Part shown: positions 26,087 to 49,000 of the stretch, in pieces
How positions within the stretch are numbered: the first letter of the stretch is position 1
How the letters are laid out: each line of letters starts with the position of its first letter
Assembly: GCF_900106035.1 (NCBI RefSeq)
Contig: NZ_FNUC01000003.1
Location: forward strand, 2,163,501-2,227,500
Reading direction: 5' to 3'
DNA from: Jiangella alba
GTDB lineage: Bacteria > Actinomycetota > Actinomycetes > Jiangellales > Jiangellaceae
DNA: 64,000 bases
The notes under the pieces: generated by a model
What the model was told of the DNA's origin: nothing
Database searches by the model: none
What the model saw: the letters and a program-made list of their open reading frames with translations, nothing else
Made by a program: the position numbers and the translations under genes

Positions 26087-27379
26087 TCACTCGTGGAGGA
26101 ACAGCTCGACGACGGGGACGGCGACGTCGGGGTGCTGGATCGGCAGTTCGATGGTCAGGTCGTCCGGCGTCGTTCCCAGTGCGGGGTGGGTGACGGCGCC
26201 TTCGTCGTGCGAGACGCGGCGTACTTCGGACGCGTCGTTCAGCAGTTGGGCGTAGCGGACCTTCCCGGCGAGCCCGGGGAGGTGCAGGTGTCTGAACGGC
26301 CACGAGAACACGTGCAGGTACAGCCGGTCGCCGCGCTGGGTGTAGCGGCAGTCCCGTGGCGGCGCGAACGCGCTGGCGCCGGCGCCGTGGATCGACCTGG
26401 CGTGCAGCCGCATCCACCGCCCGATCTCGGCCAGCGTGTCCAGCGCCCGCGGCTCCAGCTCGCCGCGGCCGTTCGGGCCGACGTTCAGCAGCAGGTTGCC
26501 GTCCTTCGACACGGTGTCGACCAGCAGTTTGATCAGCAGCTCCGGCGACTTCCAGTCGAGGTTGTCGCGGTCGTAGCCCCAGCTGCCGTTCAGGGTCTGG
26601 CAGGCCTCCCAGGTGACCGGGACGCCGTCGATGACCACCGGCGCCACCGGCTGGTACTGCTCCGGCGTGACGAAGTCGGCCGAGCCGTCGACGTCGAGCC
26701 GGTCGTTGATCAGCGCCTGCGGCGCCAGCCGGCGGACCAGCGAGATGAGGTCGTCGGAGCGCCAGTCGGCCGCCCCCTTGCCGCCCACGAGCGGGCGGCC
26801 CTGGGCATCGCGCCAGTTCCGGTAGGAGAAGTCGAACCACATGGTGTCGACCGGCGCGTACTTCGTGAGCAGTTCCTCGACCTGTCCGTGCAGGTACTGC
26901 GCATAGTGCGCGACGTCGCGGCCGTGCTGGTCGACGCCGTCGCGTTCGAAGTCCGGGTGCAGCCCGTCGATGGGGAAGTCGGGCTGCTGCCAGTCCAGCA
27001 GCGAGTGGTAGAAGCCGACGCCCAGGCCCTCGCGCCGGAACGCGTCGGCGGTCGGGCCGACGAGGTCCTTGCCCCAGGGTGTGGAGCGCACCGAGTAGTC
27101 GGTCAGCTCGGAGTCCCACAGGCAGAAGCCGTCGTGGTGCTTGGTGGTGAGCACCATGTACGTCATGCCCGCGTCGCGGGCGGCACGGGCCCAGACCGCG
27201 GGGTCGAACAGGTCGGGATCGAAACGGTCGAGGTAGGGCTGGTACTGGTCGCGGCTGAGCCGTTCGCGGTTGCGCACCCACTCGTGCCGTGCGGCCAGGG
27301 CGTAGACGCCCCAGTGGATGAACATCCCGAAGCGCTGTCGCCGGAACTCGTCGAGGCGGGCCGGGTCGGCTGCGGTCAT
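26087..27379 (-). CDS. Alpha-L-fucosidase (GH29)
   Basis: 430 residues. The GH29 barrel begins with RFGMFIHWGVYA, followed by MVLTTKHHDGFCLWDS, the signature His-His-Asp strand. The catalytic nucleophile is expected to be Asp183 in MWFDFSY. INDRL and GVPVTWEACQTLNGSWGY are also typical of the family. It removes terminal alpha-L-fucose from oligosaccharides. No signal peptide is present, so it acts on imported oligosaccharides in the cytoplasm. Released fucose could feed the aldo/keto reductase and aldolase of this module. An RBS (AGGAGAAGG) precedes the ATG. Confidence 0.94.
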   Translation of the reverse strand: MTAADPARLDEFRRQRFGMFIHWGVYALAARHEWVRNRERLSRDQYQPYLDRFDPDLFDPAVWARAARDAGMTYMVLTTKHHDGFCLWDSELTDYSVRSTPWGKDLVGPTADAFRREGLGVGFYHSLLDWQQPDFPIDGLHPDFERDGVDQHGRDVAHYAQYLHGQVEELLTKYAPVDTMWFDFSYRNWRDAQGRPLVGGKGAADWRSDDLISLVRRLAPQALINDRLDVDGSADFVTPEQYQPVAPVVIDGVPVTWEACQTLNGSWGYDRDNLDWKSPELLIKLLVDTVSKDGNLLLNVGPNGRGELEPRALDTLAEIGRWMRLHARSIHGAGASAFAPPRDCRYTQRGDRLYLHVFSWPFRHLHLPGLAGKVRYAQLLNDASEVRRVSHDEGAVTHPALGTTPDDLTIELPIQHPDVAVPVVELFLHE

Positions 27380-29836: not shown

Positions 29837-29876
29837 GGTGTGGTCTCCGCTGCTGTCGTGGTGGCGGCGAGCGTCA

Positions 29877-32432: not shown

Positions 32433-32473
32433 GGGCGTGCCTTTCTGCGGGGTGACGGGGCGGGCGTTGGGGG

Positions 32474-33718
32474 TCAGGCGTTGGCGTGCGGGTTCGATTC
32501 GCGGTGCAGCCGCGCGTCGCGTGCGGCGGGGTCGGGCTCGGAGACGACGATCCGTTCCACCAGGTCGGAGCGGCCGGCGGTGATCGCGTCCTCGGTGAAG
32601 CGGGCCAGCAGGACCTGGCCGTCGGTGCGGCGGTTGTGGTCGTAGGAGACGCAGATCCGCCCGTATGGCAGTTCGGCGATGTCGGGGTAGGCCACCTTCG
32701 AGCGGCCGTCCAGGACCAGACCCCTCGTCCAGGTGACGCCGTCGTCGTGCGACAGGTACGCGGTGAGCTCGCTGCGGCCGTGACCGGGCGCCGGCCGGCC
32801 CAGCTCGGAGCCGTTCTTCACCAGCAGCAGGGCGCCGCTGCGCAGCCGCTGCAGCGCGTGGCGTGAGCTCGGCTGCCGGATGACGGACGACGGACGTGGC
32901 TGCTTCCAGCGCGTGGCCGTCGGGTCGCCGGTGGTCTCGGCCAGACCACCGGACGCGAGCCGTGCGGTCAGCCAGAGCGTGCCGTCGGTGCGCTGGACCA
33001 ACCGCGGCTCGTCGAACTCGGGAGGGCCGAAGCGGATGGTTGCTGTGTGCTCCCAGCTCAGGCCTTCGTCGAGGCTGCGCCGCACCCAGGCGCCGCGGTG
33101 TTCGTCGAGGTCGCCGAAGTGGTCGTGGAAAGGATTGACCGCCCACGGTGCGACCGATGCCGGCTGGCCCGGCTCGATCCGGGTCCTGTCCCACAACGAC
33201 CCGGTCATCACCCAGGAGCGGTCGGAGAGCACGACGGGTTTGTTCAGGAGCGCCCCGTCGGCGATCCGCCGCGGTGCGGACCAGGTGAGCTCGTCGGCAT
33301 CAGCATCCGGTGAGCTCAGGGCCCAGGTGCCGGCTCGGCCGTCGAAGTAGGTGACGGCCTGGTCGACGAAGAGCCAGAGGCGGTTGTGAGGGTCGACCCA
33401 GACGGCGCCGACCAGACTGCGGCGCCGTAGCGCGTCGTCGGCGCTTCCGGGGTTGACCAGCGTGACCGGATCGGACCACGTGCGTCCGCCGTCGTCGCTG
33501 CGGCGAAGGACCACGAACGCGAGGTGGTTGTCGCCGCCGGCGATCGACGCCGACCACAACCGCCCGCCGGCGGTCGCGTCGATCCCGAGGGTCATGCCGT
33601 AGTCGAAGCGCACCGGGACGGACGCGAGGTCCGCTCCGGAGACGATCGACGGGCCGCGCAGTGCTGACTCGAGAGCGGCGTCCAGCTCGTCGGGGGTGGG
33701 TGTGCGCGAGTCGGTCAT
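32474..33718 (-). CDS. Sialidase/BNR-repeat family exo-glycosidase-like protein
   Basis: 414 residues from ATG at 33718. Three Asp-box-type repeats are visible: SDDGGRTW at 74-81, SLDEGLSW near 207 and SHDDGVTW near 330. This is the pattern of six-bladed sialidase-type propellers. There is no signal peptide, which points to cytoplasmic action. The family now includes rhamnosidase and other glycan-cleaving activities, so sialic acid need not be the substrate; no sialic-acid catabolic genes are present. Its ATG overlaps the aldolase stop by 4 nt. Confidence 0.8.
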   Translation of the reverse strand: MTDSRTPTPDELDAALESALRGPSIVSGADLASVPVRFDYGMTLGIDATAGGRLWSASIAGGDNHLAFVVLRRSDDGGRTWSDPVTLVNPGSADDALRRRSLVGAVWVDPHNRLWLFVDQAVTYFDGRAGTWALSSPDADADELTWSAPRRIADGALLNKPVVLSDRSWVMTGSLWDRTRIEPGQPASVAPWAVNPFHDHFGDLDEHRGAWVRRSLDEGLSWEHTATIRFGPPEFDEPRLVQRTDGTLWLTARLASGGLAETTGDPTATRWKQPRPSSVIRQPSSRHALQRLRSGALLLVKNGSELGRPAPGHGRSELTAYLSHDDGVTWTRGLVLDGRSKVAYPDIAELPYGRICVSYDHNRRTDGQVLLARFTEDAITAGRSDLVERIVVSEPDPAARDARLHRESNPHANA

Positions 33719-34470
33719 CGATCGGTCTCCCGGAAGGCGTCGCGGGCGTTGGCGACGGCACCGTGCAGCAGGGCGGAATCGCTGGACCAGCACAGCCACG
33801 TGCAGCCGTGCGCGAGCGCCCGGCTCGCCAGCGCCGCGTTCGAGGTCATGACGCCGGCGGTCAGGCCGTGTGTGCGGGCCGCCGCGGCGATGGCGCGCAG
33901 CGCCTCGTCCAGCACCGGGTGGTCGTAGCGTGCCGGTGCGCCGGCGTTGGTCAGCAGGTCGTTGGGCCCGAGCACCAGCCCGTCCAGCCCGGGCACCGAG
34001 GCGATCGCGTCGAGCCGGTCCAGCGCGGCAGGCGTCTCGACCTGTGCCAGCGCGTGGACCCCGGTGTTGGCGCGGCCGAGGTACTCGGCGACGTCGACGC
34101 GCTGGAAGTCCGTGTGCGCCCGGAAGGTGCTGACCCCGCGGCGGCCGAGGGGCGGATACTTCGTGGCCTCGACGAGGAGTTCGCAGTCGGCGCGCGAGGA
34201 GACCATCGGGGCGACGATCCCGGTCGCGCCGGCATCGAGGTAGCGCCTCGTACGCGCCATTTCGGAGAGGGGGACACGGACGTAGATCTCGAGGGCGTCC
34301 CAGGCGGCGGCGATCAGGGTCGACACCTGAGCGTCGTCGAACGCACCGTGCTCGCCGTCGACGACGGCGAAAACCAGTCCGGCCGAGGCGAGGATCCGAG
34401 GCAAGGCCGGCCCGGCGAACTCGCAGATCATGGTGCCGAGGTGCTGCGGCGACGGGGAGTGGTCAGGCAC
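33715..34470 (-). CDS. HpcH/HpaI-family aldolase (2-keto-3-deoxy-sugar-acid aldolase-like)
   Basis: 251 residues from GTG at 34470. The class-II aldolase motif DGEHGAFDD (residues 38-46) carries the metal-binding Glu. ATGIVAPMVSS, PPLGRRGVSTFRAH and DGLVLGPNDL are further family blocks. Members split 2-keto-3-deoxy-rhamnonate, -glucarate or hydroxyheptanedioate to pyruvate and an aldehyde. With the fucosidase and aldo/keto reductase in this module, a keto-deoxy-fuconate or -rhamnonate substrate is a reasonable guess. It overlaps both neighbours (8 nt and 4 nt). Confidence 0.9.
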   Translation of the reverse strand: MPDHSPSPQHLGTMICEFAGPALPRILASAGLVFAVVDGEHGAFDDAQVSTLIAAAWDALEIYVRVPLSEMARTRRYLDAGATGIVAPMVSSRADCELLVEATKYPPLGRRGVSTFRAHTDFQRVDVAEYLGRANTGVHALAQVETPAALDRLDAIASVPGLDGLVLGPNDLLTNAGAPARYDHPVLDEALRAIAAAARTHGLTAGVMTSNAALASRALAHGCTWLCWSSDSALLHGAVANARDAFRETDR

Positions 34471-35602
34471 GGCCGGCCCCCAGCGCGGCCGGCTCGGCGA
34501 GGCGAGCCAGCCCGAGAAGGGCGTGGTCGTGGGCCTGGTTGTGCCGGACGGGCAGCCCGGTGAGCCGGTACAGCGTCTGGCCGAAGGCCGGCCGGCGGCG
34601 TGCCGCTCCTCCGGTGACGACCAGCCGGGTGGCGTCGCGGGCCGGGTTCAGCAGCTCCACCGCGGCGGCGAAGCGGCGCGCCGTCCGCTCGCCGGGATCG
34701 TCGACGACCGTCTGCCCAGTTGGCAGCCCGGAGACGACCCGCAGGTAGCCGCCGTTCAGGTGCGGGCGCAGTTCGGTACCCGCGATCTGGTCCCGGTCGT
34801 CAGCGGGACGGCTGACCAGACCGGCGGTTCCAGCCGCGACGACGATGCCTGTCCGGTCGGTGACGCCGGCTCCGAGCACCGCGGCCTGGTTGTCGCCGAG
34901 GTCCGGATGGAGGACGACCCCCGTCCGGCGGCAGGTTCCGACGGGCGTGAGGTCGTGCACCACGCGCGGGAAGACGAGCTCCGACAGCCCGGCCCACCCG
35001 ATCAGGTCATCGCTCCACCGGGCTTCGACGAGATCGTAGAGCCCGGTGGCGGCGGCGCAGGTGACGTGGGTGACGTGCTCGCCGGACAACTGGTCGAGCA
35101 CGAGGCTGCCGAGGGTGTGGAACCGCCCGCGCGGCGCCCGGCCGGCGGCATGGGCGAGCGCGTGGGCGTTCGCCAGCGGGGAATCAGGCCGCAGCCAGGT
35201 TCCGGTACGGGCCATCGCGGCCGGCGGGATGCGGGCGGCGAGCCGGGCGAACGGTGTGCGCCCGCGGACCGGGCGCGAGGCGTGGCCGGCCTGCCAGGTG
35301 AGGTAGCGGGTGGGCCGGTCGCCGTCCTCGATCGCGAAGCCGCGCATGTGCGTGCTGAGGCGCAGCGCCCGGATCGGCTCGGGTCCTCGGCTCTCGCGAT
35401 CGAGGAGGGTCGCCACGGTGCCTCGCACGGCCGCGGCGCTCCAGGTCGCGTCGTCGTCCGCCGTGGCATCGGCGAGCTCCGAGGTCGGCCGTGGCGGGCG
35501 CGGCTCGATCCCTCGTCCGCTCGTCACCGCGGACTTGACCCAGGTGGTGCCGAGGTCGAGCAGCAGGGTGCGTGGCGTGCCCGTCCGGTGCCGGCCGGTC
35601 AT
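34463..35602 (-). CDS. FGGY-like carbohydrate kinase (short form)
   Basis: 379 residues from ATG at 35602, which overlaps the upstream binding-protein stop (ATGA). The phosphate-1 loop LLLDLGTTWVKSAV (Asp16, Lys23) and the later VVTGGAARRRPAFGQTLYRLTGLPV adenosine-binding region are typical of the ASKHA/FGGY fold. An HPDLGDNQAAVLGAG segment also fits. At 379 residues it is about 100 shorter than most FGGY kinases, so the C-terminal part is compact. It probably phosphorylates a sugar or ketose made in this pathway; the exact sugar is unknown. Confidence 0.82.
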   Translation of the reverse strand: MTGRHRTGTPRTLLLDLGTTWVKSAVTSGRGIEPRPPRPTSELADATADDDATWSAAAVRGTVATLLDRESRGPEPIRALRLSTHMRGFAIEDGDRPTRYLTWQAGHASRPVRGRTPFARLAARIPPAAMARTGTWLRPDSPLANAHALAHAAGRAPRGRFHTLGSLVLDQLSGEHVTHVTCAAATGLYDLVEARWSDDLIGWAGLSELVFPRVVHDLTPVGTCRRTGVVLHPDLGDNQAAVLGAGVTDRTGIVVAAGTAGLVSRPADDRDQIAGTELRPHLNGGYLRVVSGLPTGQTVVDDPGERTARRFAAAVELLNPARDATRLVVTGGAARRRPAFGQTLYRLTGLPVRHNQAHDHALLGLARLAEPAALGAGRA

Positions 35603-37086
35603 CGGCCCTTGAATTCGTCGAGCTGCTCCTGCGTCTCCTGCAGGATTCGGGGGAGGCCGGCCCGCTCGATGGCCGAGCGCAGGTTGGACAGTGCCTCGTC
35701 CGCGTCGAGCTGCCCCGTGAGTGCCAGAGGCGCGTGCTCGTCGATGGCCGCGGTGACCGCCGCGACCTCGGTGCGGATGCGGTCGGTGGTGAGGGAGAAC
35801 CCGATGGCCTTGGACGGGGCGGCCGACCCGTTCAGTTCGGCCTCGCGTTCCCAGCGCTTCGCCTCGGCGTCGGCCAGGTTGCGGTACGGCGCGTTGAACT
35901 GGTTGCCGAAGACCCAGTCGCTGTTGGGGTCGTAGGCCGCCTGCTGGGGTCCGGCTTCGACCAGGTCCGGGTGGTCGGCGCTCTGGACGTAGTGGGTGCC
36001 CTCGATGCCGAAGCAGATCGTGCGGTACACGTCCAGGTCGGTGTTGAGGGCCTCGAGGAACGACAGCACCGCAGCGGGGTCGGGAGTGTCGACGTTGATG
36101 CCGGTGAGCGTCGCGAGAACGCCGTCGGTGTTGAGCAGCGGTGTGCGGACGAACGTGTTGCCGATGGTGGCGAACTCGGTGTACTGCGGGTTCGTCGGGA
36201 GGTACTGGGCATCGGCGAACGCGGTCTGGCCGGAGTTCCAGCGGGTCTGCATGTCGTCGGCCGACGGCGGTGTGGGTTCCACGAGGCCGAGCTCGTTCCA
36301 GCGCCGCATGGTGCGGACGGCGTCCTCGAACTCGGGTGTGTCGAACCATGAGAACGCCGCCAGCGAGTCGTCGTCGTAACGAACCGCCAAGGCGAGCGTG
36401 GTGGCGATGGGGTCGAAGCCGTGGATCTCCGGCTGGAACAGCTTGCCGTGGGCCTGGTTGGAGGTGGACCAGGGCAGCAGTTGTCCTGCGTCCCTGACCC
36501 GGACCAGGAAGGGTTCCAACTCGGCGAAGGACGTGATGGCCGCGGGGTCCATCCCGAGCTGGTCGACGACCTCCTGCTTGGCCTGGAAGCCCCACATCTT
36601 GGGGAAGCGCTGCTGGTTGATGACGCCGTAGATCCGGCCGTTGACGCGGGCGGCGTCCCAGACGTCCGACGACATACTGGCCAGCAGCTTGGGCGCATGC
36701 TCGGCCAGTAGGTCGTCGAGCTCGAGCAGGTTGCCGTCTGAGGCGTTGGTGGCGTACGAGTTGGACCACGGTGCCGTGAAGTAGAGATCGCCCGGGTCAC
36801 CCGAGGCGACCCGCAGGCCCATCGCCTGGTTGTAGTCCTGGAGTGCGTCGAGCGTCACCGTGTACGGCGCGCCCCGGTCGGCGAGCAGGTCGTTGAGCGA
36901 GTCCTGGACAGCCCCGGCGTCGGGCAGTTCCTTGGTGGCCATGAAGGTGTAGGTGAGGTCGGCCGAGCCGTCACTCCGGCCGCCGTCGCCGTTCCTCGAG
37001 CAACCGGAGAGGAATCCTGCACCGGCCAGGCCCGCGGCGATGCCGCCGCCGGCGACCAGGAGAGAGCGCCTGCTGATGGTGTTCAT
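35599..37086 (-). CDS. Sugar ABC transporter substrate-binding lipoprotein (LplA/YtcQ-like)
   Basis: 495 residues. The signal peptide has both a twin arginine (SRRSLLVAG) and a lipobox LSGC with Cys29, suggesting Tat-exported lipoprotein anchoring. The mature protein resembles extracellular solute-binding family 1 of the LplA type. That type carries a DUF3502-like C-terminal region, and here it ends in LQETQEQLDEF. It works with the two permeases upstream. No ATPase is encoded here; this permease class usually borrows a shared MsmK/UgpC-type ATPase from elsewhere. Confidence 0.9.
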   Translation of the reverse strand: MNTISRRSLLVAGGGIAAGLAGAGFLSGCSRNGDGGRSDGSADLTYTFMATKELPDAGAVQDSLNDLLADRGAPYTVTLDALQDYNQAMGLRVASGDPGDLYFTAPWSNSYATNASDGNLLELDDLLAEHAPKLLASMSSDVWDAARVNGRIYGVINQQRFPKMWGFQAKQEVVDQLGMDPAAITSFAELEPFLVRVRDAGQLLPWSTSNQAHGKLFQPEIHGFDPIATTLALAVRYDDDSLAAFSWFDTPEFEDAVRTMRRWNELGLVEPTPPSADDMQTRWNSGQTAFADAQYLPTNPQYTEFATIGNTFVRTPLLNTDGVLATLTGINVDTPDPAAVLSFLEALNTDLDVYRTICFGIEGTHYVQSADHPDLVEAGPQQAAYDPNSDWVFGNQFNAPYRNLADAEAKRWEREAELNGSAAPSKAIGFSLTTDRIRTEVAAVTAAIDEHAPLALTGQLDADEALSNLRSAIERAGLPRILQETQEQLDEFKGR

Positions 37087-37121: not shown

Positions 37122-38069
37122 TCAGTCCTTGACGCCGCCGAGAGTGATGCCCTTGATGAGGAACTTCTGCAGGAAGAAGAAGGCGATGACGATCGGACCG
37201 ATCGCGAGGACGGCGATCGCCGCCCGCGCAGACTGCACCGGGACGACGTCGAAGCCGCCGGCCAGCTGGGGGTTGGTCAGCGCGAAGTCGATGTTGGAGT
37301 TGATGCGATACAGCAGCAGCTGGACGGGGGTCAGCGCCCGATCCTGGACGTAGAGCAGTCCCAGCCACCAGTCGTTCCAGTACTGGAGCATGACGAACAG
37401 CCCGACGGCTCCGAGCGCGGGTTTGGACAGCGGGAGCACGACGGAGCGGAAGACCCGGAGTTCGCCGGCGCCGTCGATGCGGGCCGCGTCGAACAGCTCG
37501 CTCGGCAGGCCCATGAAGTACGTGCGCAGGAGCAGCACGTACCACGGTGCGACCAAGTAGGGGAGGATCAGCACCCAAAGCGTGTCCTGGAGCCCGTAGT
37601 AGCGAGTGATCATGATGTAGAGCGGGACCAGGCCGCCATTGAAGATCATGGCGAACAGCACGGCGAGAGTGATCGGCCGCCGCAGGCGGAAGTCCGGCCG
37701 CGAGAGCGCGAACGCCATCAGCGCCATGATGAGCAGCGACGCCACGGTGCCCACCCCGGTCACGACGATCGACACGGCGTAGCTGCGCAGGAGCTGATCG
37801 GCGTTGTCGAGCACGAAGCGGTACGCCTCTGTGGTGAACCCGCGCGGCCAGAGCCCGTAGCCGTGCTCGTTGAGCTGAGTCTCGTCGGAGAACGACGCCG
37901 AGACCATGATGACGAGAGGGAGGACGAAGGCCGCGGCGATACCGACGGCCACGACGCGAAGGACGAGGGGCGCCCGCCGCGCGGCGCTCGGCTTGCGCCG
38001 TCCGGCGGGTGTGGACGGCACCGGCGGGATGGCTCCGGCCTGGCGCGGAGTGACCTCAGAAGAGAGCAT
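37122..38069 (-). CDS. Carbohydrate ABC transporter permease (LplC-like)
   Basis: 315 residues from ATG at 38069, which overlaps the LplB-like gene. About six membrane segments are present, and the conserved EAA loop is LFDAARIDGAGELRVFRSVVLPLSKPAL. The C-terminal FLQKFLIKGITLGGVKD tail ('K-G-x-x-x-G-x-x-K-x') is a hallmark of LplC-type permeases. It is partner of the 38056 permease and the lipoprotein. Confidence 0.93.
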   Translation of the reverse strand: MLSSEVTPRQAGAIPPVPSTPAGRRKPSAARRAPLVLRVVAVGIAAAFVLPLVIMVSASFSDETQLNEHGYGLWPRGFTTEAYRFVLDNADQLLRSYAVSIVVTGVGTVASLLIMALMAFALSRPDFRLRRPITLAVLFAMIFNGGLVPLYIMITRYYGLQDTLWVLILPYLVAPWYVLLLRTYFMGLPSELFDAARIDGAGELRVFRSVVLPLSKPALGAVGLFVMLQYWNDWWLGLLYVQDRALTPVQLLLYRINSNIDFALTNPQLAGGFDVVPVQSARAAIAVLAIGPIVIAFFFLQKFLIKGITLGGVKD

Positions 38070-39006
38070 TGTCCGGAGTCCTCCTGCGCACGTACCAGTT
38101 GGCTGTGGTGACCAGCAGGAATCCGACGACCGCCTGGTACAGGCCGGCCGCGGCCGCCATACCGACGTCACCGGTGGTGGTCAGCGCCCGGTACACGAAC
38201 GTGTCGATGACGTCGGTGGTGGGATAGAGCGCGGGGTTGTTCTGGGTCACCTGGAAGAACAACCCGAAGTCGGCGTTGAACATCTTGCTGACCGACAGCA
38301 GGACGTTGATGACGATGAGCGGGAGCAGCAGGGGAAGGGTGATGCGGCGGATCTGCTGCCATCGTGATGCGCCGTCGATGTCGGCGGCCTCGTACAGGGA
38401 CGGGTTGATCGCGAGGATGCCCGCCACGTAGACGATGACCCAGAACCCGACGCCCTTCCACAGGTCGACCGACACCAGGATGGCGGGCCAGTACTCGGGT
38501 TCGGAGTACCAGTTGACCGCGGGCAGGGCGGCCGCGCCCAAGATCTGGTTTACCAGGCCGCGACCGGAGTCCAGGAACGCTGTGACGAGGTTGGCCACGA
38601 CCACCCAGGACAGGACGAACGGCAGGAACATCGCCGACTGCGTGACGGTGGCCAGCAGCGGCGAGCGGGCACGCAGCTCGTGCAGGACGAGCGCGAGCGT
38701 CAGGGCGACCACGAGGGTTGCGACGATGAACGACAGGTTCATGACCACGGTGTTGCGTGTGATCCGCGCCGCGTCGCCGGCGAACAGGTAGGCGAAGTTC
38801 TCGAATCCCACGGTCTGGCTGCCGAAGATGCCGTCACGCGGGCGGAAGTCCTTGAACGCCAGCACGATGCCGAAGAGCGGGGCGTAGTTGAACAGGACCA
38901 GCAAGGCCAGCCCGGGCGCGCACAGCCCGAGGTAGAGCAGTTCGCGACGGATCGCCCGAGAGCGCCGCTGACTACGTCGCGGTCGCACACGAGGCTCACT
39001 CTGCAC
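38056..39006 (-). CDS. Carbohydrate ABC transporter permease (LplB-like)
   Basis: 316 residues, probably from GTG at 39006; the RBS is not strong and a nearby internal start is possible. A basic N-terminus precedes LLYLGLCAPGLALLVLFNYAPLFGIVLAF, the LplB-type first segment with 'Y-x-P-x-x-G'. The EAA loop is LYEAADIDGASRWQQIRRITLPLL. It is the first gene of the leftward sugar operon, so it should be transcribed from the 39007-39119 control region shared with the regulator-hydrolase gene. Confidence 0.92.
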   Translation of the reverse strand: MQSEPRVRPRRSQRRSRAIRRELLYLGLCAPGLALLVLFNYAPLFGIVLAFKDFRPRDGIFGSQTVGFENFAYLFAGDAARITRNTVVMNLSFIVATLVVALTLALVLHELRARSPLLATVTQSAMFLPFVLSWVVVANLVTAFLDSGRGLVNQILGAAALPAVNWYSEPEYWPAILVSVDLWKGVGFWVIVYVAGILAINPSLYEAADIDGASRWQQIRRITLPLLLPLIVINVLLSVSKMFNADFGLFFQVTQNNPALYPTTDVIDTFVYRALTTTGDVGMAAAAGLYQAVVGFLLVTTANWYVRRRTPDNALF

Positions 39007-39073
39007 GGCGCCATCACCTGCTTCGTCGCTGGAGGACCGGAGCGGTCTGAGGGAATTTACTTCGCCGACACTC

Positions 39074-39113
39074 GAAAGAACATTGATTTCATGTGGCTGA
39101 AAGGATTATTCTC
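39074..39113. promoter_or_regulatory. AT-rich control region with two GAAAG-type half sites (candidate RpiR operator)
   Basis: GAAAGAACATTGATTTC (39074-39090) and GAAAGGATTATTCTC (39099-39113) begin alike and sit in an unusually AT-rich patch between the divergent operons. RpiR/MurR regulators bind GAAA...TTTC-like sites, and an RpiR-type gene starts here. If these are operators, the GTG at 39093 lies inside them, which favours GTG 39120 as the true start of that gene. Confidence 0.3.
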
Positions 39114-39119
39114 ACTGCC

Positions 39120-40727
39120 GTGCTCATCGGTCAAGTACCTCAGCCCGGTCGTAGTAGCGGTGCCATCGACCGCATCCACGCCTACCTGCCGAACCTGTCG
39201 CCGGCGGAGCGCCGCGTCGGCGAGGCCATCATCGCCAGCCCAGGCGACGCCATCGGAATGACGATCATGGAGTTCGCCAAGGAGTGCGGCGTCGCCCAGG
39301 CGACCCTCACTCGCTTCGCGCAGCATGTCGGGTTCGACGGCTACCCGGCGCTTCGGCTCAGCCTCGCCAACGATCGGGCGCTGACCGCGCAGATCCGTGC
39401 CGAAGGGCCGGCAGAGCGCGACATCCAGGCGGCCGCCCACTTCGGGAACGACGACTACCTGCCCATGCTCGCGGCCGCCCTCCGGCACACCTCGGTGGTC
39501 GAGATCTGGTCGTCCCCGGACACCGACGTCGGCGCGGAGCTGCTGGCCACCGAACTGCGTGCGCTCGGTGTGCATGCCAGTTGGTCGAACAAGCCGCGGC
39601 ATTGGGCGTTGACCGCGGGCGCGCTGCCGCCAACCTCGATGGTCGTGTTGTTCGGGCCGACTGGTCCGCATGCCGCCGAAACCGACCGTGCGCTCGGCCT
39701 GGCGCGTGCGCGAGGCGCATCGGTCGGGATCGTCGGCGGTTCACTACCCAGCGGCCAGCCCGAGCCCGGGACCTACGCACTTTCGCTTCCACAAGGCGCC
39801 ACACCGGAGACGGCGTCCATCATCGCCGCGCACTCGATCGCCCAGGCCGTCCGAGCCGTGTCACACATCGTCGGGGATGGGCCGGCGTCGCCGTGGACAC
39901 CGTGGCCCCACCTGCGCGACCTCTACATCCCGTTCCCGGGCCACGACCCCATTCCGGCGACACTGCTCAGCCAGCCGCCCGATTCCCCGTCGGCCAGCCT
40001 CGTCGTCCTGTTCGGGGGACACCGGTCGTCGCGTGAGCAGGCCGTGCCGCCAGGCATCCCGGTGAACCGCGAGCTGCCCAGCCATGCCGCTGCTCTGCTG
40101 AACGACGGACACCACGTCCTCGTCGTCGAGAATCCAGGGCACGGTGCGCGCAAGCGGGAATGGGAGAACGCGTCCGACCTCGTCGGATTCAGCCTCGACG
40201 GCCAGGGCGAGGACCTGCTCGAAATCGCGTGGACGCAGGCGCCGCACATTGTCGATGCGGTCCTCGATCTGCCCGAGCAGGTCGATCCCGCACGCATCGC
40301 GGTCGTCGGCCAGTCCTGGGGCGGACTGCAGGCGATGCTCATGGCGTCGGGGGACCCGCGGCTGCGCTGCGTCGCCGCGCTCATGCCGGTCTGTTTCCCG
40401 ACCACCGTGCGGGAGTACGCCAAGTTCGCCAGGCGCTCGCGAGTCGAGAAGGCGAGCCTGCTGGGGGAGCGGGGCGACCACCTCGCGACGCGCCCGCTGC
40501 TGCTGGTCTCCGGTGAGCATGACCATGTGGCTCCCTCGCAGGAGGTGCGCCGGCTCGAGGAGGGGCTGCGTGCCCGGTACGAGAGCGACGGTCGCGGAGA
40601 GCAGCTCGTGCACGTCGAGCTGGCGAACGTCGGGCACACCTTCAGCCGCGACGCCACGGAACGGATGCTCGTCTGGGTCGCGCAGCACCTGGGCGGCGAG
40701 GGCACGGCCGTCGACGGGCGGCGGTGA
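39120..40727 (+). CDS. RpiR/MurR-type regulator fused to an alpha/beta-hydrolase
   Basis: 535 residues from GTG at 39120; GTG 39093 would add nine. Residues ~10-80 are the RpiR HTH domain (YLPNLSPAERRVGEAI, then AKECGVAQATLTRFAQHVGF). Residues ~95-245 have a SIS-like sugar-phosphate-binding layout (VVEIWSSPDTDVGAELLATEL, SMVVLFGPTG). From ~265 a complete alpha/beta-hydrolase follows: Ser399 in GQSWGG, Asp468 in SGEHDHV and His506 in VGHTF. RpiR proteins normally end after the SIS domain at about 280-300 residues. The fusion reads through without a stop and is translationally coupled to the next gene. It probably regulates this sugar module and may hydrolyse or sense an acylated sugar. Confidence 0.85.
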   Translation: MLIGQVPQPGRSSGAIDRIHAYLPNLSPAERRVGEAIIASPGDAIGMTIMEFAKECGVAQATLTRFAQHVGFDGYPALRLSLANDRALTAQIRAEGPAERDIQAAAHFGNDDYLPMLAAALRHTSVVEIWSSPDTDVGAELLATELRALGVHASWSNKPRHWALTAGALPPTSMVVLFGPTGPHAAETDRALGLARARGASVGIVGGSLPSGQPEPGTYALSLPQGATPETASIIAAHSIAQAVRAVSHIVGDGPASPWTPWPHLRDLYIPFPGHDPIPATLLSQPPDSPSASLVVLFGGHRSSREQAVPPGIPVNRELPSHAAALLNDGHHVLVVENPGHGARKREWENASDLVGFSLDGQGEDLLEIAWTQAPHIVDAVLDLPEQVDPARIAVVGQSWGGLQAMLMASGDPRLRCVAALMPVCFPTTVREYAKFARRSRVEKASLLGERGDHLATRPLLLVSGEHDHVAPSQEVRRLEEGLRARYESDGRGEQLVHVELANVGHTFSRDATERMLVWVAQHLGGEGTAVDGRR

Positions 40728-42709
40728 CCGTGGGAATCGGTGCGGCAGTGGCCAGACGGACCAGCATCTCCATCGCCCCCAGCGGAGGGCCCTTCCCGGC
40801 CTGGGCCGTGCTCGAACGAAAGCTGATCGACGAACTGGACCGCGCGTGGCGGGTGTTCCGGGACCGGTGCACCGAGCCCGACGGGCGGGTCCGGTTCGAC
40901 AACGCCGGCTACCTGAGCTCCCGGGACGCCGTCGACGACTTCTACGAGATCTTCTTCAACTGGCCGACCCTGGCGCTGATCACCGGTTCGGATGATCTGC
41001 TGGACGCGTCGAAACGGCATTGGACGGGCACGACCCGGATGCTCGCCGAGCTGGGCCGGCTCGAGGACGAGTACGAGGTCGGCTACGACTGGTTCCACCA
41101 GGGCGAGGGCAACCTCTTCTTCTACGGCCTCTGCCTCGCGGCGCCACAGGATGACGATCTCGTCGAGCGCTCCCGCCGGTTCGCCGACCTCTACCTGGGC
41201 GGTCCACCGTCGAACTACGACTCCGAACGCAACATGATGCGGGCGATCCACACCGGTGCCGGCGGCCCGCGTTACGGGCTGCGTGACGAATCGGTGGCGC
41301 GCTACCCATGGACGCGGTCGATGGACCGCTACGGCCTGCCCTTCACTTGGCTTCCCGGCATCGAGAGTTATGACGCCCTGCTCGCCGACGACGCGCTGCA
41401 ACGACGCCTGGGCGAGGAGATGGAGCGGCGCATGGGGCGCGGCGACGCCGTCGTCAGCCTGGCGGTGACCAGCCTGATGATGAACGCCCACCTCATGACC
41501 GGCGACGAGAAATACCGGGACTGGATGCTGCGCTACACCGACGGCTGGGTCGGGCGCGCAGCCGGCAACGGCGGCGTCGTGCCCGACAACGTCGGCCCGA
41601 GTGGTGCGGTCGGCGAGCTCATGGACGGCCGGTGGTACGGCGGTCACTACGGCTGGTCGTTCCCGCACGGCATCGAGAGCGTGGGCAGCGCCGTGCTCGT
41701 CGCGGCGATCAACTGCCACCTCGTCGCTCCCGATCGCGGCTATCTGGACTTCGCCCGCCGTCAGCTGGACTTCTGCCTCGACCACGCGGTCGTCGCCACG
41801 CCCGACCGCATCCATCCCGACATGCGCGAGGAATTCGTCCGCCGCCACGGCCTTGATCCGCACGCGCCGACGCTGCTCGCACCAGCTCGCTACACCGACG
41901 GCGGCCACTTCGACCTGCAGCCCCCGCCACTGGACCTGCTCACCGCGCTGTGGAACGTCAGCCAGGACGAGCGAGATCGCGGCCGCATCCGCGACCTCCG
42001 GCGAGCGAGCAGCGCCGACCCTGCCGCGTTCGGGCTGTTCCGCAACAAGGGCGAGGACGGCCACAGCGCGCCCTGGCTGGCCTTCCTCGACGGGGAGAAC
42101 CCGCGCTACCCCGAGGTCAGCCTCACCGGGGCGCTGAGCATCCTGGCCCGGCGTCTCGAGCTCATCGAGTCAGACGCGACTGATCCCCGTGCCATGACCG
42201 AGTGGCACTACCAAGCGCTCAATCCCGTGCTGACCGAGGTGCTGTTGCAGCTCACCTCGGGCGCTCCACAGGTGATCTACAACGGCGGACTGCTCCAGAC
42301 ACAGGTCCGCTACCACGACGCCGTCACGGGTTCACCGGGGCTTCCCTCCGACGTGGCGGCGCTGGTCTCGCAGGTCACCACTGACGAGATCGAGTTGTCG
42401 CTGGTGAACACCTCGCTCGCCGAGCCGCGCGAGGTCACCGTCGTCGGCGGCGCGCTCGGTGAGCATGCGATCACCGCCGTGGCCTGGACAGCTCTCGACT
42501 CCTGGCCGGGCTCGATCGCCGACCAGTTCGGGCCGACCGGCCCGGCGCAGACGCGCTGGGCCGAGGTCGAGACAGGTGCCCTGGACGTGCGGCTGGCCCC
42601 GGGCGCCGAGGCCCGGCTGACGCTCACCCTCGACCGCAACGCGTTCGCACCGACCTATCGCCCGCTGGCGCGGCCGCCCCGCGTCGCCGACGGACAGGAG
42701 CCATCGTGA
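40724..42709 (+). CDS. Large helical protein, possibly a six-hairpin glycosidase-like enzyme (unknown)
   Basis: 661 residues from GTG at 40724, which overlaps the upstream stop. Aromatic and His/Glu-rich segments recur between helices: YDWFHQGEGNLFFYGL, YGLPFTWLPGIESY, GRWYGGHYGWSFPHG. The last ~120 residues look like beta-strands, as in proteins with an (alpha/alpha)6 barrel and a C-terminal sandwich. No named family was recognised with confidence. No signal peptide was seen. Its place between the regulator-hydrolase and an RraA-family gene makes a carbohydrate-processing role likely, but catalytic residues cannot be assigned. Confidence 0.75.
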   Translation: MTVGIGAAVARRTSISIAPSGGPFPAWAVLERKLIDELDRAWRVFRDRCTEPDGRVRFDNAGYLSSRDAVDDFYEIFFNWPTLALITGSDDLLDASKRHWTGTTRMLAELGRLEDEYEVGYDWFHQGEGNLFFYGLCLAAPQDDDLVERSRRFADLYLGGPPSNYDSERNMMRAIHTGAGGPRYGLRDESVARYPWTRSMDRYGLPFTWLPGIESYDALLADDALQRRLGEEMERRMGRGDAVVSLAVTSLMMNAHLMTGDEKYRDWMLRYTDGWVGRAAGNGGVVPDNVGPSGAVGELMDGRWYGGHYGWSFPHGIESVGSAVLVAAINCHLVAPDRGYLDFARRQLDFCLDHAVVATPDRIHPDMREEFVRRHGLDPHAPTLLAPARYTDGGHFDLQPPPLDLLTALWNVSQDERDRGRIRDLRRASSADPAAFGLFRNKGEDGHSAPWLAFLDGENPRYPEVSLTGALSILARRLELIESDATDPRAMTEWHYQALNPVLTEVLLQLTSGAPQVIYNGGLLQTQVRYHDAVTGSPGLPSDVAALVSQVTTDEIELSLVNTSLAEPREVTVVGGALGEHAITAVAWTALDSWPGSIADQFGPTGPAQTRWAEVETGALDVRLAPGAEARLTLTLDRNAFAPTYRPLARPPRVADGQEPS

Positions 42710-43473
42710 CCCGCACGATCCCCACCCCGGCCTGGCCGCTTCCCGTGGTCGGCGCCGAGCCGCCTCGGCCGGACTCCCTTCTGCTGAAGCGGTTCGAGCG
42801 TGTCTCGGCGGCCACGGCGTGCGCGATCCTGCACAAGCTGGGTATCAGGCGAACCTGGCTCGAAGGACCGACGCCCCTGGCCGCGGCACCGCACACGGTG
42901 GGTGTTGCCCGGACCCTGCTGCTCATGCCACAACGTGAGGACGTCGTCAGCGGCCTCGACCAGGAGTACGTCGAGCGGCACTCCGCGTTGTGGCGGGTGT
43001 TCGATGACGTCATGCCTGGTGACATGCTCGTGGTCCAGGCCAACGGCGCACCCCGTACTGGCTGCGTCGGCGAGATCCTCGCCACCGCCTTCGCCGAGTT
43101 GGGCGGCCGAGGCATCGTGGTGGACGGCCGAGTCCGCGATACTCCTGCGTTGACGGAGCTCGGCCTGCCGGTGTGGTGCACGGGCGCCACTCCTCACTAC
43201 GCCTCGCAGGACGAGTTGTTTCCCTGGGGCTTTCACGTGCCTGTCCAGGTCGGCGGGTGCCTGGTGCTACCCGGCGACATCATCGTCGCCGATCGCGACG
43301 GCGCTGTCGTTGTCCCTGCGCGACTGGCTGAAGCCGTCGCCGACCGCGCCGAGGAACACGAGGACTGGGAGGCGTTCAGCCGCGACCGGGTCCGGGCCGG
43401 CGCCCGCCTTTCCGACTACTACCCACTCAACGAGGCGACCCGTCGCGAGTTCGAGAAGGAACGCGGTCGATGA
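42706..43473 (+). CDS. RraA-family protein (aldolase/dehydratase-like)
   Basis: 255 residues from GTG at 42706 (GTGA overlap). The family core is present: FAELGGRGIVVDGRVRDTPAL, with the metal-binding Asp region near residue 140-145, and LPGDIIVADRDGAVVVPARLA. True RraA is about 160 residues. This longer form matches the enzymes related to 4-hydroxy-4-methyl-2-oxoglutarate aldolase. In this module it probably acts on a sugar-derived keto acid. It is coupled to the AKR gene by an ATGA overlap. Confidence 0.87.
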   Translation: MTRTIPTPAWPLPVVGAEPPRPDSLLLKRFERVSAATACAILHKLGIRRTWLEGPTPLAAAPHTVGVARTLLLMPQREDVVSGLDQEYVERHSALWRVFDDVMPGDMLVVQANGAPRTGCVGEILATAFAELGGRGIVVDGRVRDTPALTELGLPVWCTGATPHYASQDELFPWGFHVPVQVGGCLVLPGDIIVADRDGAVVVPARLAEAVADRAEEHEDWEAFSRDRVRAGARLSDYYPLNEATRREFEKERGR

Positions 43474-44453
43474 CGGCCGCACCGCTCCCGGCGGTCGGCA
43501 TCGGCACGGCCGCCTTCGGCCGGCTGTATGCGCCCGTCTCGGCACGTATGGCTGCCGCCACCCTCGAGTCCGCCCGCGCGGCCGGCATCGACTACATCGA
43601 CACCGCACCCGGCTACGGCGACGGCCTGAGCGAACAGCGCATCGGCCGCCACCTCGCGGGCGCCGGGCCGCGGCCGGTCATCTCGACGAAGGTGGGCACC
43701 GTCGTCGACGCCCTGCCTCCCATCGATCTCGACGATCCGGACGCCGTCACGATGCAACCCGGGCGCGTCCATCGCGGCTGGACAGTCGCGGACGTACGGC
43801 GCTCGATTTCGGACTCGCTGAACCGGTTGGGGATCGATGCCATCGACATCGCCCTGCTGCACGACCCCGAGACGGACGAGGACCAGGCCGCCACCACCGC
43901 CTACGAGGCGCTGCGCCAACTGCGTGCCGAGGGTGTCGTCGGCGCCATCGGGGTCGGCTGCAACCACGTCGACGTGGCCATCCGGTTCGTGCGGCGACTC
44001 GATCTCGACTACATCCTCATCGCGGGCCGGTACACCCTGCTCGATCACTCGGCCCTCGACGACCTGCTGCCCAGAGCACTGGACCGAGACACGAAGATCA
44101 TCGCGGCCGGCGTGTTCAACTCCGGCATTCTCGCGTCGGGCCGTGCGGACGACCGGTTCCACTACCGGCCCGCGCCCGAGCACGTCAGAGAGCGGCTCCA
44201 GCAGCTCGTGGCGGCCTGCGCCCGGCACGACGTCGAGCTCGCGGCGGTCGCCGCCCAGTTCCCGTCCGGACACCCGGCCGTAGCGAGCACGGTCGTTGGT
44301 GTCCGGTCGCCCGACGAAGTACTGGCCAACGTCGAGGCGCTGCGCCGGCCCATCCCGGCCACCTTCTGGGACGAGTTGCGCGAACGAGCGCTGCTGCCGG
44401 CCAACGCGCCAGTTCCCAGTGGCCCACCCCTGAACGCGGGGGTGGCGCCATGA
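43470..44453 (+). CDS. Aldo/keto reductase, fucose (threo-aldose) dehydrogenase-like
   Basis: 327 residues. The AKR catalytic tetrad is visible: Asp44 and Tyr49 in YIDTAPGYG, Lys74 in STKVG and His131 in ALLHDPE. The HDPE segment is typical of the D-threo-aldose / L-fucose 1-dehydrogenase branch. Co-occurrence with an alpha-L-fucosidase and a keto-acid aldolase supports oxidation of L-fucose (or a similar sugar) to its lactone. The stop overlaps the next gene by 4 nt. Confidence 0.88.
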   Translation: MTAAPLPAVGIGTAAFGRLYAPVSARMAAATLESARAAGIDYIDTAPGYGDGLSEQRIGRHLAGAGPRPVISTKVGTVVDALPPIDLDDPDAVTMQPGRVHRGWTVADVRRSISDSLNRLGIDAIDIALLHDPETDEDQAATTAYEALRQLRAEGVVGAIGVGCNHVDVAIRFVRRLDLDYILIAGRYTLLDHSALDDLLPRALDRDTKIIAAGVFNSGILASGRADDRFHYRPAPEHVRERLQQLVAACARHDVELAAVAAQFPSGHPAVASTVVGVRSPDEVLANVEALRRPIPATFWDELRERALLPANAPVPSGPPLNAGVAP

Positions 44454-45699
44454 CGGACCCGTACCCGATCGACTACGACCTCACGGGATACCTCGAGACA
44501 GCTCCCGACCCCGCGCGCTCCCACCTCACGATGGCCCTCCGGCCGCGAGGTCGGTAGATGACTACTACCGCGCCCTCGTCCCCGAGCTGCGCCGTACGTC
44601 GCCTGCGCTCGCGTACCCGTACCTGGTGCCGGGCGCGCATTACCACGCGTTGTGGACGTGGGACACCTACTTCACGGGGATGGCACTGCCGGACGACTAC
44701 TTCGACCACGAAGTCGGCTCGCTGCGCAACCTGCTCGCGCACACGTCCGAGGGCGGCCGCCCGCCGTCGCGGATCGATCCCGACGGCGCGGCCGACTACC
44801 AGCACGCGGCCCAGCCCATCCATGCGGCCTGGTCGCTGTCGATCCTCGACCGCAGCGGCGACACAGAACTGCTCCGGGAGCTCTGGCCCACGCTGGTTCG
44901 GCTGCGTGCCTGGTGGGACGAGTCGACGATGTCCCGTCGCGGTCTGCACACCTGGGTCCGCGGCTCCGGCACGGGGATCGACAACGATCCGGCCATCTAC
45001 GGCCGGTCAGGTGACACCGTCGCACTCGTCGACGTGAACTGTTTCCACGTCCGCGAGCTCACCGCCATGGCGGTCCTGAGCACTCGCCTGGGGATCGGTG
45101 AGCCCGGGCCTTGGCAGGAACGGGCCGACGCACTCCGAGCAGCCATCAATACCTACATGTGGGACGACCAGCGCGGGACGTATTTCCACCTGGACCTCGC
45201 TCCGCACACCTGGCAGACCTTCCAACAGCTCACCTGGGAACTTCCGCTCCTGACCCAGACCTGGGCGAACCTGTTCCCACTGTGGACCGGAGTGGCCGAC
45301 CAGCGCCGGGCCGATCGCCTCGTCACCGAGCACGTACTGGATCCGTACCGGTTCCGTTCGCGGTTCGGCCTGCGATCGACCCCCGCTGACCAGCGCTTCT
45401 ACAACAACGTGGCCATGGCGAACCCCTCGAACTGGCAGGGTCCGGTCTGGGCACTGCCCACCGCTCTCACCGCATATGGCCTGGCACGGTTCGGCTACCG
45501 GTCGGAGGCGCTCTCGCTCGCAAAGGACCTGCGTGACACTTTCACCCGTGACCTCGCGGCCACCGGCGCCGTCCACGAGTACTACGACGCCGACACCGGA
45601 ACACCGCTCGCCCACCCGCACTTCGTCAGCTGGAACCTACTGATCACCCGTCTCGCCGACGATCTGGTCGCCAGCCACGACCCCACCGCACTGTGCTGA
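44450..45699 (+). pseudogene. MGH1/trehalase-like glycoside hydrolase, frameshifted near the N-terminus
   Basis: ATG at 44450 overlaps the AKR stop (ATGA) and opens a 35-codon frame ending at TAG 44555-44557. The protein clearly continues in another frame: DDYYRALVPELRR from 44557, then AYPYLVPGAHYHALWTWDTYF, which is the (alpha/alpha)6 mannosylglycerate-hydrolase/trehalase-like family start, on to 45699. Joining the two requires one base to be re-read around 44546-44556, as if a single base were missing. The downstream part is otherwise intact (GTGIDNDPAIYG, ANPSNWQGPVWALPT, HPHFVSWNLL). The gene is either inactivated, expressed from an internal GTG at 44626, or affected by a sequencing error. 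Confidence 0.75.
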
Positions 45700-46089: not shown

Positions 46090-49000
46090 ATGTCCATGAA
46101 CCGCGTCGTGAACCTTGAGCGCTTCTGGTTGCCGACAGGGAAGTCGTACTCGCTCACAACCGCTGGATGGCTGAGCGACCCGAACTCGGAAGGGTTGTGG
46201 CGGGCGAACGCCGATGCGCTGGCCACGCGTGCCTTGGCCGATCGGCAGTGCGTGGTCCTGCTCGGGGAACCCGGCATGGGAAAGTCAAGCGCCCTGGACG
46301 GGGGCAGGGCGTTGCTCCCACAAGTGGAGGCGCTCGAGAATCAGTACGTTGATCTGGGTGTCTATGCCGGTGAAGATCGGCTGGTCCGATCTGTCTTCGA
46401 GAGCCAGGTCATCAACAAGTGGCAGGCAGGGTCGCATCGTCTGTGCCTCACGCTCGATGGCTTCGATGAGGCCCTGAATCGGATCGAGACTCTGGACCGA
46501 CTACTCACGGACTACCTGGCGCGCTGGGACCGCGAGCGACTCTTCATCCGCCTCGTCTGTCGCACAGCCGACTGGCGCCAGTCCCTGCGAGCGGCTCTGG
46601 TGGAGGGCTTCGGTGACGCCAACGTTCACGAACTGCTACCGCTGCGTCGCTCCGACGCCGGGCTTCTCTTGCGCGCGGCGGGCCTCGATCCGGAGGAGAT
46701 CCTCGCGGCCGTCGAGCAGACACGTATCGTCCCGCTTGCCGCTCGGCCACTCACCCTGAACCTCATCCGATCCTCGATCGGCCCCGGCGGATCTCTGCCC
46801 GACAATGCGGGCGCTCTGTACCAGCGGGGGCTGACAGCACTGCTCGACGAGATGAATCCAGAGCGTCGAGGAAGCATCCGGCCGCCGGGCGGCGTGGCAA
46901 GCCGGATGCTTGCCGCCAAGCGGATCGCTGCGCTGTCCCTGTTCGGTGATCGGCCGACCGTGTGGACGGGCCCCGTTGCTGAGGCGCTGCCGGACGACTT
47001 GACGGTTGACGAATGCCTCGGGACGCAAGAGTCCTCGTCGCCTGGCATCTCCTCGGACGACGTCGCTTCGACGCTACGTTCAGGAATCTTCGCAGGAGCC
47101 GGCGAGGGGCGCCTCACCTGGTCGCACGCTACCTTCGCGGACTTCCTCAGTGCTCGATGGATCCTGGATGAAGAACTCAACGACAAGCAGGTGTCATCAC
47201 TGCTTGTAGCAAATGGCGGGCGCATCCACGCTCGTATGCGGCAGGTTGCGGCCTGGCTGGTCGGGCTCGACCCGTTGAGGTTCCGGGAGCTCATTCGGTC
47301 CGATCCGCAAGCATTCCTGGCGAGCGTCGACCTACCCGAGGAAGCACTACGCGCCGAGGTTGTCCGCGCTCTGCTTCAGGATGCGGAGACAGGGCAACTT
47401 TTCGACGATTTTCAAAGTGACTATTCGGGGCTGTACCACTCCGGCCTGGCCGAGCAGTTGCGGCCCGCCCTGGAGGCTGGGCAGGGCGAGAGGTGTCGCG
47501 TGGCGATTCGAATCGCCCGACAATGCTCATCTTTGCAGTCGGTGCCGGACCTGACTGCTCTCGCGCTGAACGACGACGCTGACCCGCACGTGCGCGCGTC
47601 GGCGGCCATGGCGGTCCACGACTTGTCCCCGGCCTCACCCAGCCATGACCTCGTGACGCTGATCGGACCCACGAACGAGCCGCCCACAAGCATGGATACC
47701 CGTGAGCTAGAGGCGGCGGCGCTCCTGGCGTCATGGCCGCACGCCGTGTCGACCGAGACGGTATTCTCGGTACTCTCACCCTCACGTCCACGCAGCTATA
47801 GAGGCCTGTACTCGAGCTTCGTCGATCACTTCGCGAGCGGGTTGGAAGACGCCGACCTCGAACCCGCCTGCGCATGGATTTTGGACGACATCTCGCGTGT
47901 GGATGACAGTCGGCTCACATCAATCACCACTGCGATCCTCCGGCTCTGCATCGCCAACCTCGACAACGATCGGGCGCGCGAGGTCGTGACAACGGTGGCC
48001 TTCAGGCGAATCGACGAGTATCAGCCTCCTTTCGGGGAGCCAGACCTTGCCGGCGAACAGATCACCATGGACGTCGGCGTGCGCCGGGCGGTGTGTCGTC
48101 TGCTCTTGGCGATGGCCTCGGAGGAGCAGGTCTGGTCGATCGTGTACCAATCGGGCCCTGGCGATCGGCTCATCGATGACGACGATCTTGAATGGCTCAT
48201 AGACGTATACGTATCCAGCGACGGCGTTACCCGTGTTAACGCGGGCCGGGCGGCCCAGACTGTGCTCAGATCCGATCTGGTGTCTCACAGCGACGTGGTC
48301 CTTGGTCTTGCGGACGACCATCCTGCGGCAGGGCTCTTCGCGTACTGGCGTACGCCGGTGGAGTTTGATTCCGAAGCCGCCGTTGCAGCTCGAACCCAGT
48401 GGTACGAGCGCTCGCCCCGAGGTCGTGAGCGAAAGCAGGCTGGCGAGGGTGAATCGGCCGACCAGTGGGTCAACCCGCGCATCGCCGAGAACATCGCCAA
48501 GGTAGTCGCCGGCGAAGCCTCGGCATTCTGGTACGCCGCGCGTTTGGTCACCGTCAAACCTGGCACACAGAGGCACATGAACGAGTACCAGCCAGACCTG
48601 ACGCTCCACCCTCGCTGGGAAACGCTCCCGGCGGCCGTGAGGTCTGACTTCGTGCTGGCGGCGGCAAGTTATGTCGAGAACGGTAAGTGCGAGCCTGAGC
48701 GATGGTTGGCGCAGAACCTCGACTTCTACCCGGCCCGAGCCGGATACAGGGCTTTGGTCTTACTGCTGCGCCTCGCACCTGACACGTTGGAGGCCGTGGC
48801 GCCCGCCGCATGGCGTGAGTGGGCACCGATCCTGGTCGCCTGGACCGCGACGGTCAACGGGGCGAGTGAGGAGGACAAGAGACGGTTGCTCGCATTGGCG
48901 CGCCCGCACGCCGACGAGGAACTGCGTGCGGCGATGCTGGCGTTGGTCGACCAGGCAATCGCCGATGGGTCGTATGTGTTTCTCAGGACAGAGTTCGATG

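Follow-up and report, generated by a model that had tools for sequence, protein, structure and literature searches.

The locus analysed here raises the question of whether one protein of Jiangella alba joins a transcription regulator to a complete enzyme and, if it does, what such a protein would be for. The original prediction, made for a window of 64 kb (the whole stretch of DNA that was analysed), described an RpiR helix-turn-helix (HTH) domain, a SIS-like middle part and a complete alpha/beta-hydrolase in a single uninterrupted frame coupled to a downstream catabolic operon, and proposed either a regulator that processes its own acylated sugar ligand or an enzyme tethered to DNA. The features considered below are collected in Table 1.

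Table 1. Features of the fusion gene, its product and the surrounding region (positions in the window)
Feature	Coordinates	Strand	Remarks
RpiR-type HTH / degenerate SIS / alpha-beta-hydrolase fusion	39120..40727	+	535 aa, GTG start, TGA stop
HTH_6 (RpiR) DNA-binding domain, residues 18-85	39171..39374	+	Pfam, E=1.2e-14
Degenerate SIS domain, residues 91-258	39390..39893	+	core positions kept, phosphosugar-site positions replaced
Alpha/beta-hydrolase domain, residues 265-526	39912..40697	+	nearest named model esterase PRK10566 (YjfP)
Ser399, predicted nucleophile	40314..40316	+	GQSWGG
Asp468, predicted catalytic acid	40521..40523	+	GEHDH
His506, predicted catalytic base	40635..40637	+	VGHTF
Intergenic region common to fusion gene and divergent transporter operon	39007..39119	.	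conserved block ~39053-39119
661-aa protein outside Pfam and NCBIfam families, without clear PDB relative	40724..42709	+	4-nt overlap with fusion gene
RraA-like / 4-hydroxy-2-oxoacid aldolase-fold protein	42706..43473	+	Pfam E=3e-30
Aldo/keto reductase (AKR)	43470..44453	+	closest in the PDB to L-galactose dehydrogenases (aldose to lactone)
MGH1-like glycoside hydrolase	44626..45699	+	true start probably upstream of 44626 (ortholog reading longer)
ABC sugar transporter permease 1	38056..39006	-	divergent from fusion gene
ABC sugar transporter permease 2	37122..38171	-	start nearer 38060 in ortholog
Sugar-binding lipoprotein with DUF3502	35599..37080	-	listed ORF reaches 37578
FGGY-family sugar kinase	34463..35725	-	
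HpaI/GarL-type 2-keto-3-deoxy sugar acid aldolase	33715..34470	-	
Alpha-L-fucosidase (GH29)	26087..27379	-	E=1e-82; presumed relation to operon

The open reading frame runs through 535 uninterrupted codons from the GTG at 39120 to the TGA, as predicted. A longer reading of 544 aa from a GTG at 39093 exists in the window sequence, but the ortholog described below has no in-frame start 5' of the position equivalent to 39120, which makes 39120 the better start. GC content by codon position is coherent over most of the frame and displays no phase jump, with a lower GC3 at residues ~181-225. The only internal start codons from which a separate hydrolase might be translated are GTGs (residues 247, 309 and 315), none of them with a clear ribosome site, and initiation at the latter two would truncate the hydrolase domain. 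The possibility that a sequencing or assembly error has joined two genes, which would have undone the original prediction, is hardly conceivable because not only is the codon-position GC coherent in the fusion frame, but an independently sequenced genome contains a gene of equal frame and length whose product is 91% identical. The regulator-hydrolase fusion is thus, for practical purposes, certain to be real.

This second copy is found in Jiangella endophytica (contig NZ_QVAI01000033), with 91% identity extending across all 535 residues, and a copy with the same identity over the same 535 residues was detected in a genome of this genus from another collection (G007); the two copies probably come from one species. 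The length and the catalytic triad are conserved in the ortholog, and the gene order at its locus is the same as in J. alba. Between the two species, the HTH (residues 1-90) is 100% identical at the protein level, the middle part 92% and the hydrolase 89%. The dN/dS ratio of the fusion against the ortholog is 0.16 overall (~0.19 for the hydrolase and 0.12 for the middle part), which is comparable to the values of 0.07-0.36 for metabolic genes nearby.

Outside this pair, the domain order appears to be rare. Among ~42 HTH_6 matches over the cut-off in 12 Jiangella genomes, these two are the only fusions; no further full-length match was found in the order (22 genomes), among relatives (99) or in 394 genomes that sample the class evenly, and no other fusion was detected among ~490 actinobacterial genomes. 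Used alone, the hydrolase part retrieved no relative but itself (E<=1e-8) from 396 genomes drawn from the phylum, and plasmids contain no long match to the whole protein and none to the fused hydrolase. A scan of 84,980 genomes with short conserved peptides picks up close relatives only, and the deep search for fusions covered Actinomycetota, so distant fusions may exist elsewhere. Other long RpiR genes, from Jiangella as well as from further actinobacteria (G001, G003, G004, L013 and L033), owe their length to N-terminal frame extensions, encode a normal SIS domain and are not fusions.

The N-terminal part of the protein matches the HTH_6 domain with 54.4 bits against a Pfam cut-off of 28.3, and the assignment of an RpiR HTH to this part is therefore confirmed. 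The domain would presumably bind DNA at the targets proposed below. Like RpiR/MurR/HexR regulators, the fusion continues from HTH_6 into a probable SIS fold and is encoded upstream of, and divergently from, sugar genes; unlike them, it has a SIS part that lacks the phosphosugar-site residues and lies below detection with PF01380, and it carries an additional hydrolase of 270 residues. RpiR proteins do normally end after SIS, as had been noted, a known exception being the glucokinase-RpiR fusion (NF010701 in NCBIfam; PRK14101). The latter likewise combines a sugar-pathway enzyme and an RpiR-type regulator in one chain, but there the glucokinase precedes the regulator, whereas in Jiangella the hydrolase comes after it. 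The match of NF010701 to the Jiangella protein is limited to the HTH region, and the glucokinase domain is absent.

The middle part was predicted to be SIS-like, which probably holds for the fold but not for a normal SIS domain: PF01380 matches neither fusion protein even at E=1, compared to 14/14 ordinary RpiR relatives. In a profile comparison, residues 126-222 are collinear with RpiR SIS domains (E=2e-4, with a probability of only 46%; an unrelated negative control gave E=0.39). Of the 37 positions in the SIS region that are conserved in >=90% of the 14 relatives, the fusion keeps 15, mostly small and hydrophobic core residues, compared to 55-100% in ordinary members. The family-consensus positions that are replaced include G131, S135, S180, G183, T185, T206, N207 and E227, that is, the G and S of the GxGxS motif, the S, G and T of the SxSGxT loop and the subsequent TN and E, so that the phosphosugar-binding residues of the RpiR family are missing from the fusion. 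RpiR proteins are described as sensors that recognise phosphorylated sugars via SIS, as exemplified by HexR and KDPG (PMC5489143). To judge from these replacements, the site in the fusion would no longer bind sugar phosphate, and the domain probably retains its fold for oligomerisation. An AlphaFold2 model built from the single sequence (pLDDT 42) is too poor for geometry, and we do not rely on the SIS-like order of strands and helices that it shows at residues 127-250.

In contrast to this decay, the C-terminal hydrolase appears to be complete, with the residues of the triad at the positions originally assigned. Abhydrolase_1, Abhydrolase_6 and Peptidase_S9 all match over the cut-off within residues 310-526 (Pfam), and the esterase of PDB entry 9bd4 aligns over residues 323-524 (E=2e-7), its S, D and H coinciding with S399, D468 and H506. 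The protein thus contains the GxSxG elbow followed by Asp and His in the order of serine alpha/beta-hydrolases, and the ortholog has identical triad motifs, with the nucleophile elbow intact in both species. The closest named models are esterases, followed by the enol-lactonase PcaD, with no sugar lactonase among them. Enzymes of the YjfP type (PRK10566; PDB 9bd4) are alpha/beta-hydrolases of comparable length in which the positions of the triad align, but they are stand-alone proteins of low identity to the fused hydrolase, which scores 44.6 bits with PRK10566 against a curated cut-off of 201 and hence is not a member. A weak match to AXE1 acetyl xylan esterases was also detected (Pfam). The Amidohydro_2 domain that characterises L-fucono-1,5-lactonase (NF052480) is absent; since the fused enzyme is an alpha/beta-hydrolase and not an amidohydrolase, any lactonase role would be non-homologous.

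The predicted coupling of the fusion gene to a catabolic operon is borne out by 4-nt overlaps (GTGA/ATGA) that join it to the genes for the 661-aa protein, the RraA-like protein and the AKR and that are kept in the ortholog, which argues that the four genes form one unit. The 113-base gap that separates the fusion gene from the divergent transporter genes shows strong conservation from ~39053 onwards. A promoter-like site for the transporter on the minus strand (39134-39105, TTGACC-18-AATAAT; 10/12, with 0.1 expected) reaches into the 5' end of the fusion gene, so that binding there could combine autoregulation with control of the transporter. A possible leaderless promoter of the fusion gene itself (TTGATT at 39083 and TATTCT at 39107, the latter seven bases ahead of the GTG) is weak (8/12). 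The binding site proposed at 39074-39113 found no support: there is no inverted repeat above chance in that segment, and the best palindrome in 39007-39125 has a score of 5, which is equalled by 82% of shuffles. Two further regions of the window deserve mention. Adjoining the fucosidase gene, positions 27440-33799 (minus strand) encode two large, secreted-looking, parallel-beta-helix-like proteins and a BNR/sialidase-like protein; the frame at 29877-33194 on this strand has no Pfam match. On the plus strand, an open frame of 1386 aa at 46090-50250, with a P-loop motif GEPGMGKS near the N-terminus and a GC3 below that of its neighbours, resembles large NTPases of the STAND type and was possibly acquired.

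Clues to the function of the operon come from relatives of the 661-aa protein, which are present in 20 of the 394 genomes of the class sample. We read 14 clusters around these relatives; several come from one genus or family, so that they represent about five independent lineages, and the argument for replacement developed below accordingly rests on few lineages. A GntR relative is found in 12 of the 14 clusters and an Amidohydro_2 protein in 10 (in two of these at 6-7 kb), including 8 of the 9 clusters that contain an AKR. Given that the 7.68-Mb genome has 22 Amidohydro_2 genes, ~0.05 would be expected per 18 kb. For two of the amidohydrolases, the best NCBIfam match is L-fucono-1,5-lactonase (E=7e-23 and 6e-32, below the equivalog cut-off), and one comparison-cluster amidohydrolase resembles PDB 4dlf. 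These clusters of a putative L-fucono-1,5-lactonase (cog3618, NF052480) and GntR share the 661-aa family, the RraA-like protein, the AKR and the ABC permeases with the locus described here, but differ in that the amidohydrolase and GntR are missing here and the fusion occupies the operon instead. There is no Amidohydro_2 relative in the whole 64-kb window, whose sole GntR lies 35 kb off, so that none occurs at less than 30 kb from the operon; neither was found in the 17.6 kb read at the ortholog locus. In one cluster with an AKR, L061, there is no amidohydrolase and yet no fusion either. In L061 and L062 (genomes of ~1.5 Mb), the relatives of the 661-aa protein are located amid three enolase-superfamily sugar acid dehydratases and a GntR regulator; an alpha/beta-hydrolase (Abhydrolase_3) next to the relative in L061 has no detectable relationship to the fused one. 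Other Jiangella loci (L044, L046 and L047) contain a paralogous set consisting of a 661-aa relative (~47-50% identical), an AKR, an amidohydrolase and GntR, and the fusion cluster therefore appears to encode this kind of pathway in a second version.

Taken together, the AKR resembling L-galactose dehydrogenase, the lactonase-like partners and the dehydratases in the comparison clusters, and the fucosidase point to a non-phosphorylating route of the L-fucose or L-galactose type, with which the HpaI-type aldolase encoded nearby is in keeping. In bacteria, the non-phosphorylating L-fucose route requires a lactonase after the dehydrogenase (PMC11199699). No relative of an L-fuconate-type dehydratase was found in the 64-kb window, and the pathway as read is therefore incomplete.

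Because the GntR and amidohydrolase partners are missing here, we propose that the fusion supplies both functions. The HTH, in place of GntR, would bind within 39007-39119 and control the divergent sugar transporter genes together with its own catabolic operon; the SIS part would keep its fold while having lost the sugar-phosphate site; and the hydrolase, if competent, would stand in for the amidohydrolase-type lactonase and cleave an intermediate of the pathway, for which the aldonolactone formed by the AKR from a sugar of the L-fucose or L-galactose type is the most likely candidate and a sugar ester the second choice. The loss of the SIS site leaves the pocket of the hydrolase as the obvious place in which a ligand could be sensed, and binding or turnover there may report the presence of substrate to the HTH. 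As a protein that would combine catalysis with gene control, the fusion would belong with the trigger enzymes or bifunctional metabolic regulators. This bifunctional regulator-enzyme is the best explanation that we can offer, but in its specifics it is tentative because of the few lineages compared, the L061 cluster, the esterase models, the missing dehydratase and the unusable structure model. That the models nearest to the hydrolase are esterases counts against the lactonase reading, the 22 Amidohydro_2 genes of the genome could supply a lactonase in trans, and sugar lactones also open spontaneously. With respect to the original prediction, the joining of a regulator to an enzyme stands, given the single conserved frame and the intact-looking triad, whereas the acylated sugar has no specific backing, since the neighbouring genes favour a sugar lactone at least as well. 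That the regulator processes its own ligand is possible, an idea made somewhat more attractive by the degeneration of the ligand site in SIS.

Three other accounts of the fusion have to be weighed against a bifunctional regulator-enzyme. The two halves, a regulator and an esterase or lactonase, might simply both work without influencing each other, their fusion fixing only stoichiometry or co-expression. An allosteric link is often lacking between domains fused within one operon, both HTH and hydrolase are complete, and the architecture is confined to two close species, all of which is compatible with such an arrangement; however, after the loss of the SIS sensor site it is not evident where a regulator lacking the hydrolase would bind a ligand, and we give this account a modest chance at best. 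The hydrolase might instead have become a pure ligand-binding module that replaces the decayed SIS site, in which case the triad would be kept although turnover is not needed. The loss of the SIS site fits this scenario, and BzdR sets a documented precedent for the conversion of an enzyme domain to an effector domain (PMC3602430). Nevertheless, it seems rather unlikely, because both species have retained an intact triad and nucleophile elbow under purifying selection, whereas the domain of BzdR has no detectable kinase activity (PMC3602430). Finally, a sugar-ester (acetyl) esterase might strip acyl groups from the imported sugar while the regulator senses the acylated or free form. YjfP as the nearest named model, the weak AXE1 match and the glycan-degrading enzymes in the cluster speak for such an activity, but the neighbouring genes imply no acylated substrate and the comparison clusters hold a lactonase-like protein, not an esterase, in the equivalent place, which renders it quite improbable.

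A parallel to the bifunctional regulator-enzyme that we propose is BzdR, in which an XRE HTH and a shikimate-kinase-like, enzyme-derived C-terminal domain are combined for the control of a catabolic operon (PMC3602430). The difference is that the enzyme domain of BzdR is inactive as far as can be detected and the protein has no SIS remnant, whereas the Jiangella fusion has an intact triad. A laboratory-built precursor of BzdR, consisting of the HTH and an active shikimate kinase, still repressed in vivo despite the effector, and the data of the authors implicate its residual enzyme activity (PMC3602430). In a natural protein of this kind, clearance of its own signal may serve to reset the switch. 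A further conjecture, improbable but worth stating, is that the ancestral SIS sensor was retired and that the fused lactonase, still active, both removes and senses the inducer, forming a self-clearing switch; the protein would then represent a natural intermediate stage in the evolution of a regulator out of an enzyme.

Regulators are believed to originate when a DNA-binding domain becomes joined to an enzyme, but natural proteins that combine an intact catalytic site with a decayed older sensor have, to our knowledge, rarely been recognised, and the active BzdR intermediate had to be made in the laboratory (PMC3602430). If active, the Jiangella fusion would be a natural case in which the enzyme-to-regulator step can be tested via single mutations, and it would put a name, that of an alpha/beta-hydrolase, to a step otherwise performed by an amidohydrolase. 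The family of the 661-aa protein, adjoining catabolic genes of the L-fucose type, is a good target for function assignment. For the two closely related soil bacteria that encode the fusion, a single protein may cover both the regulatory and the lactone-opening roles.
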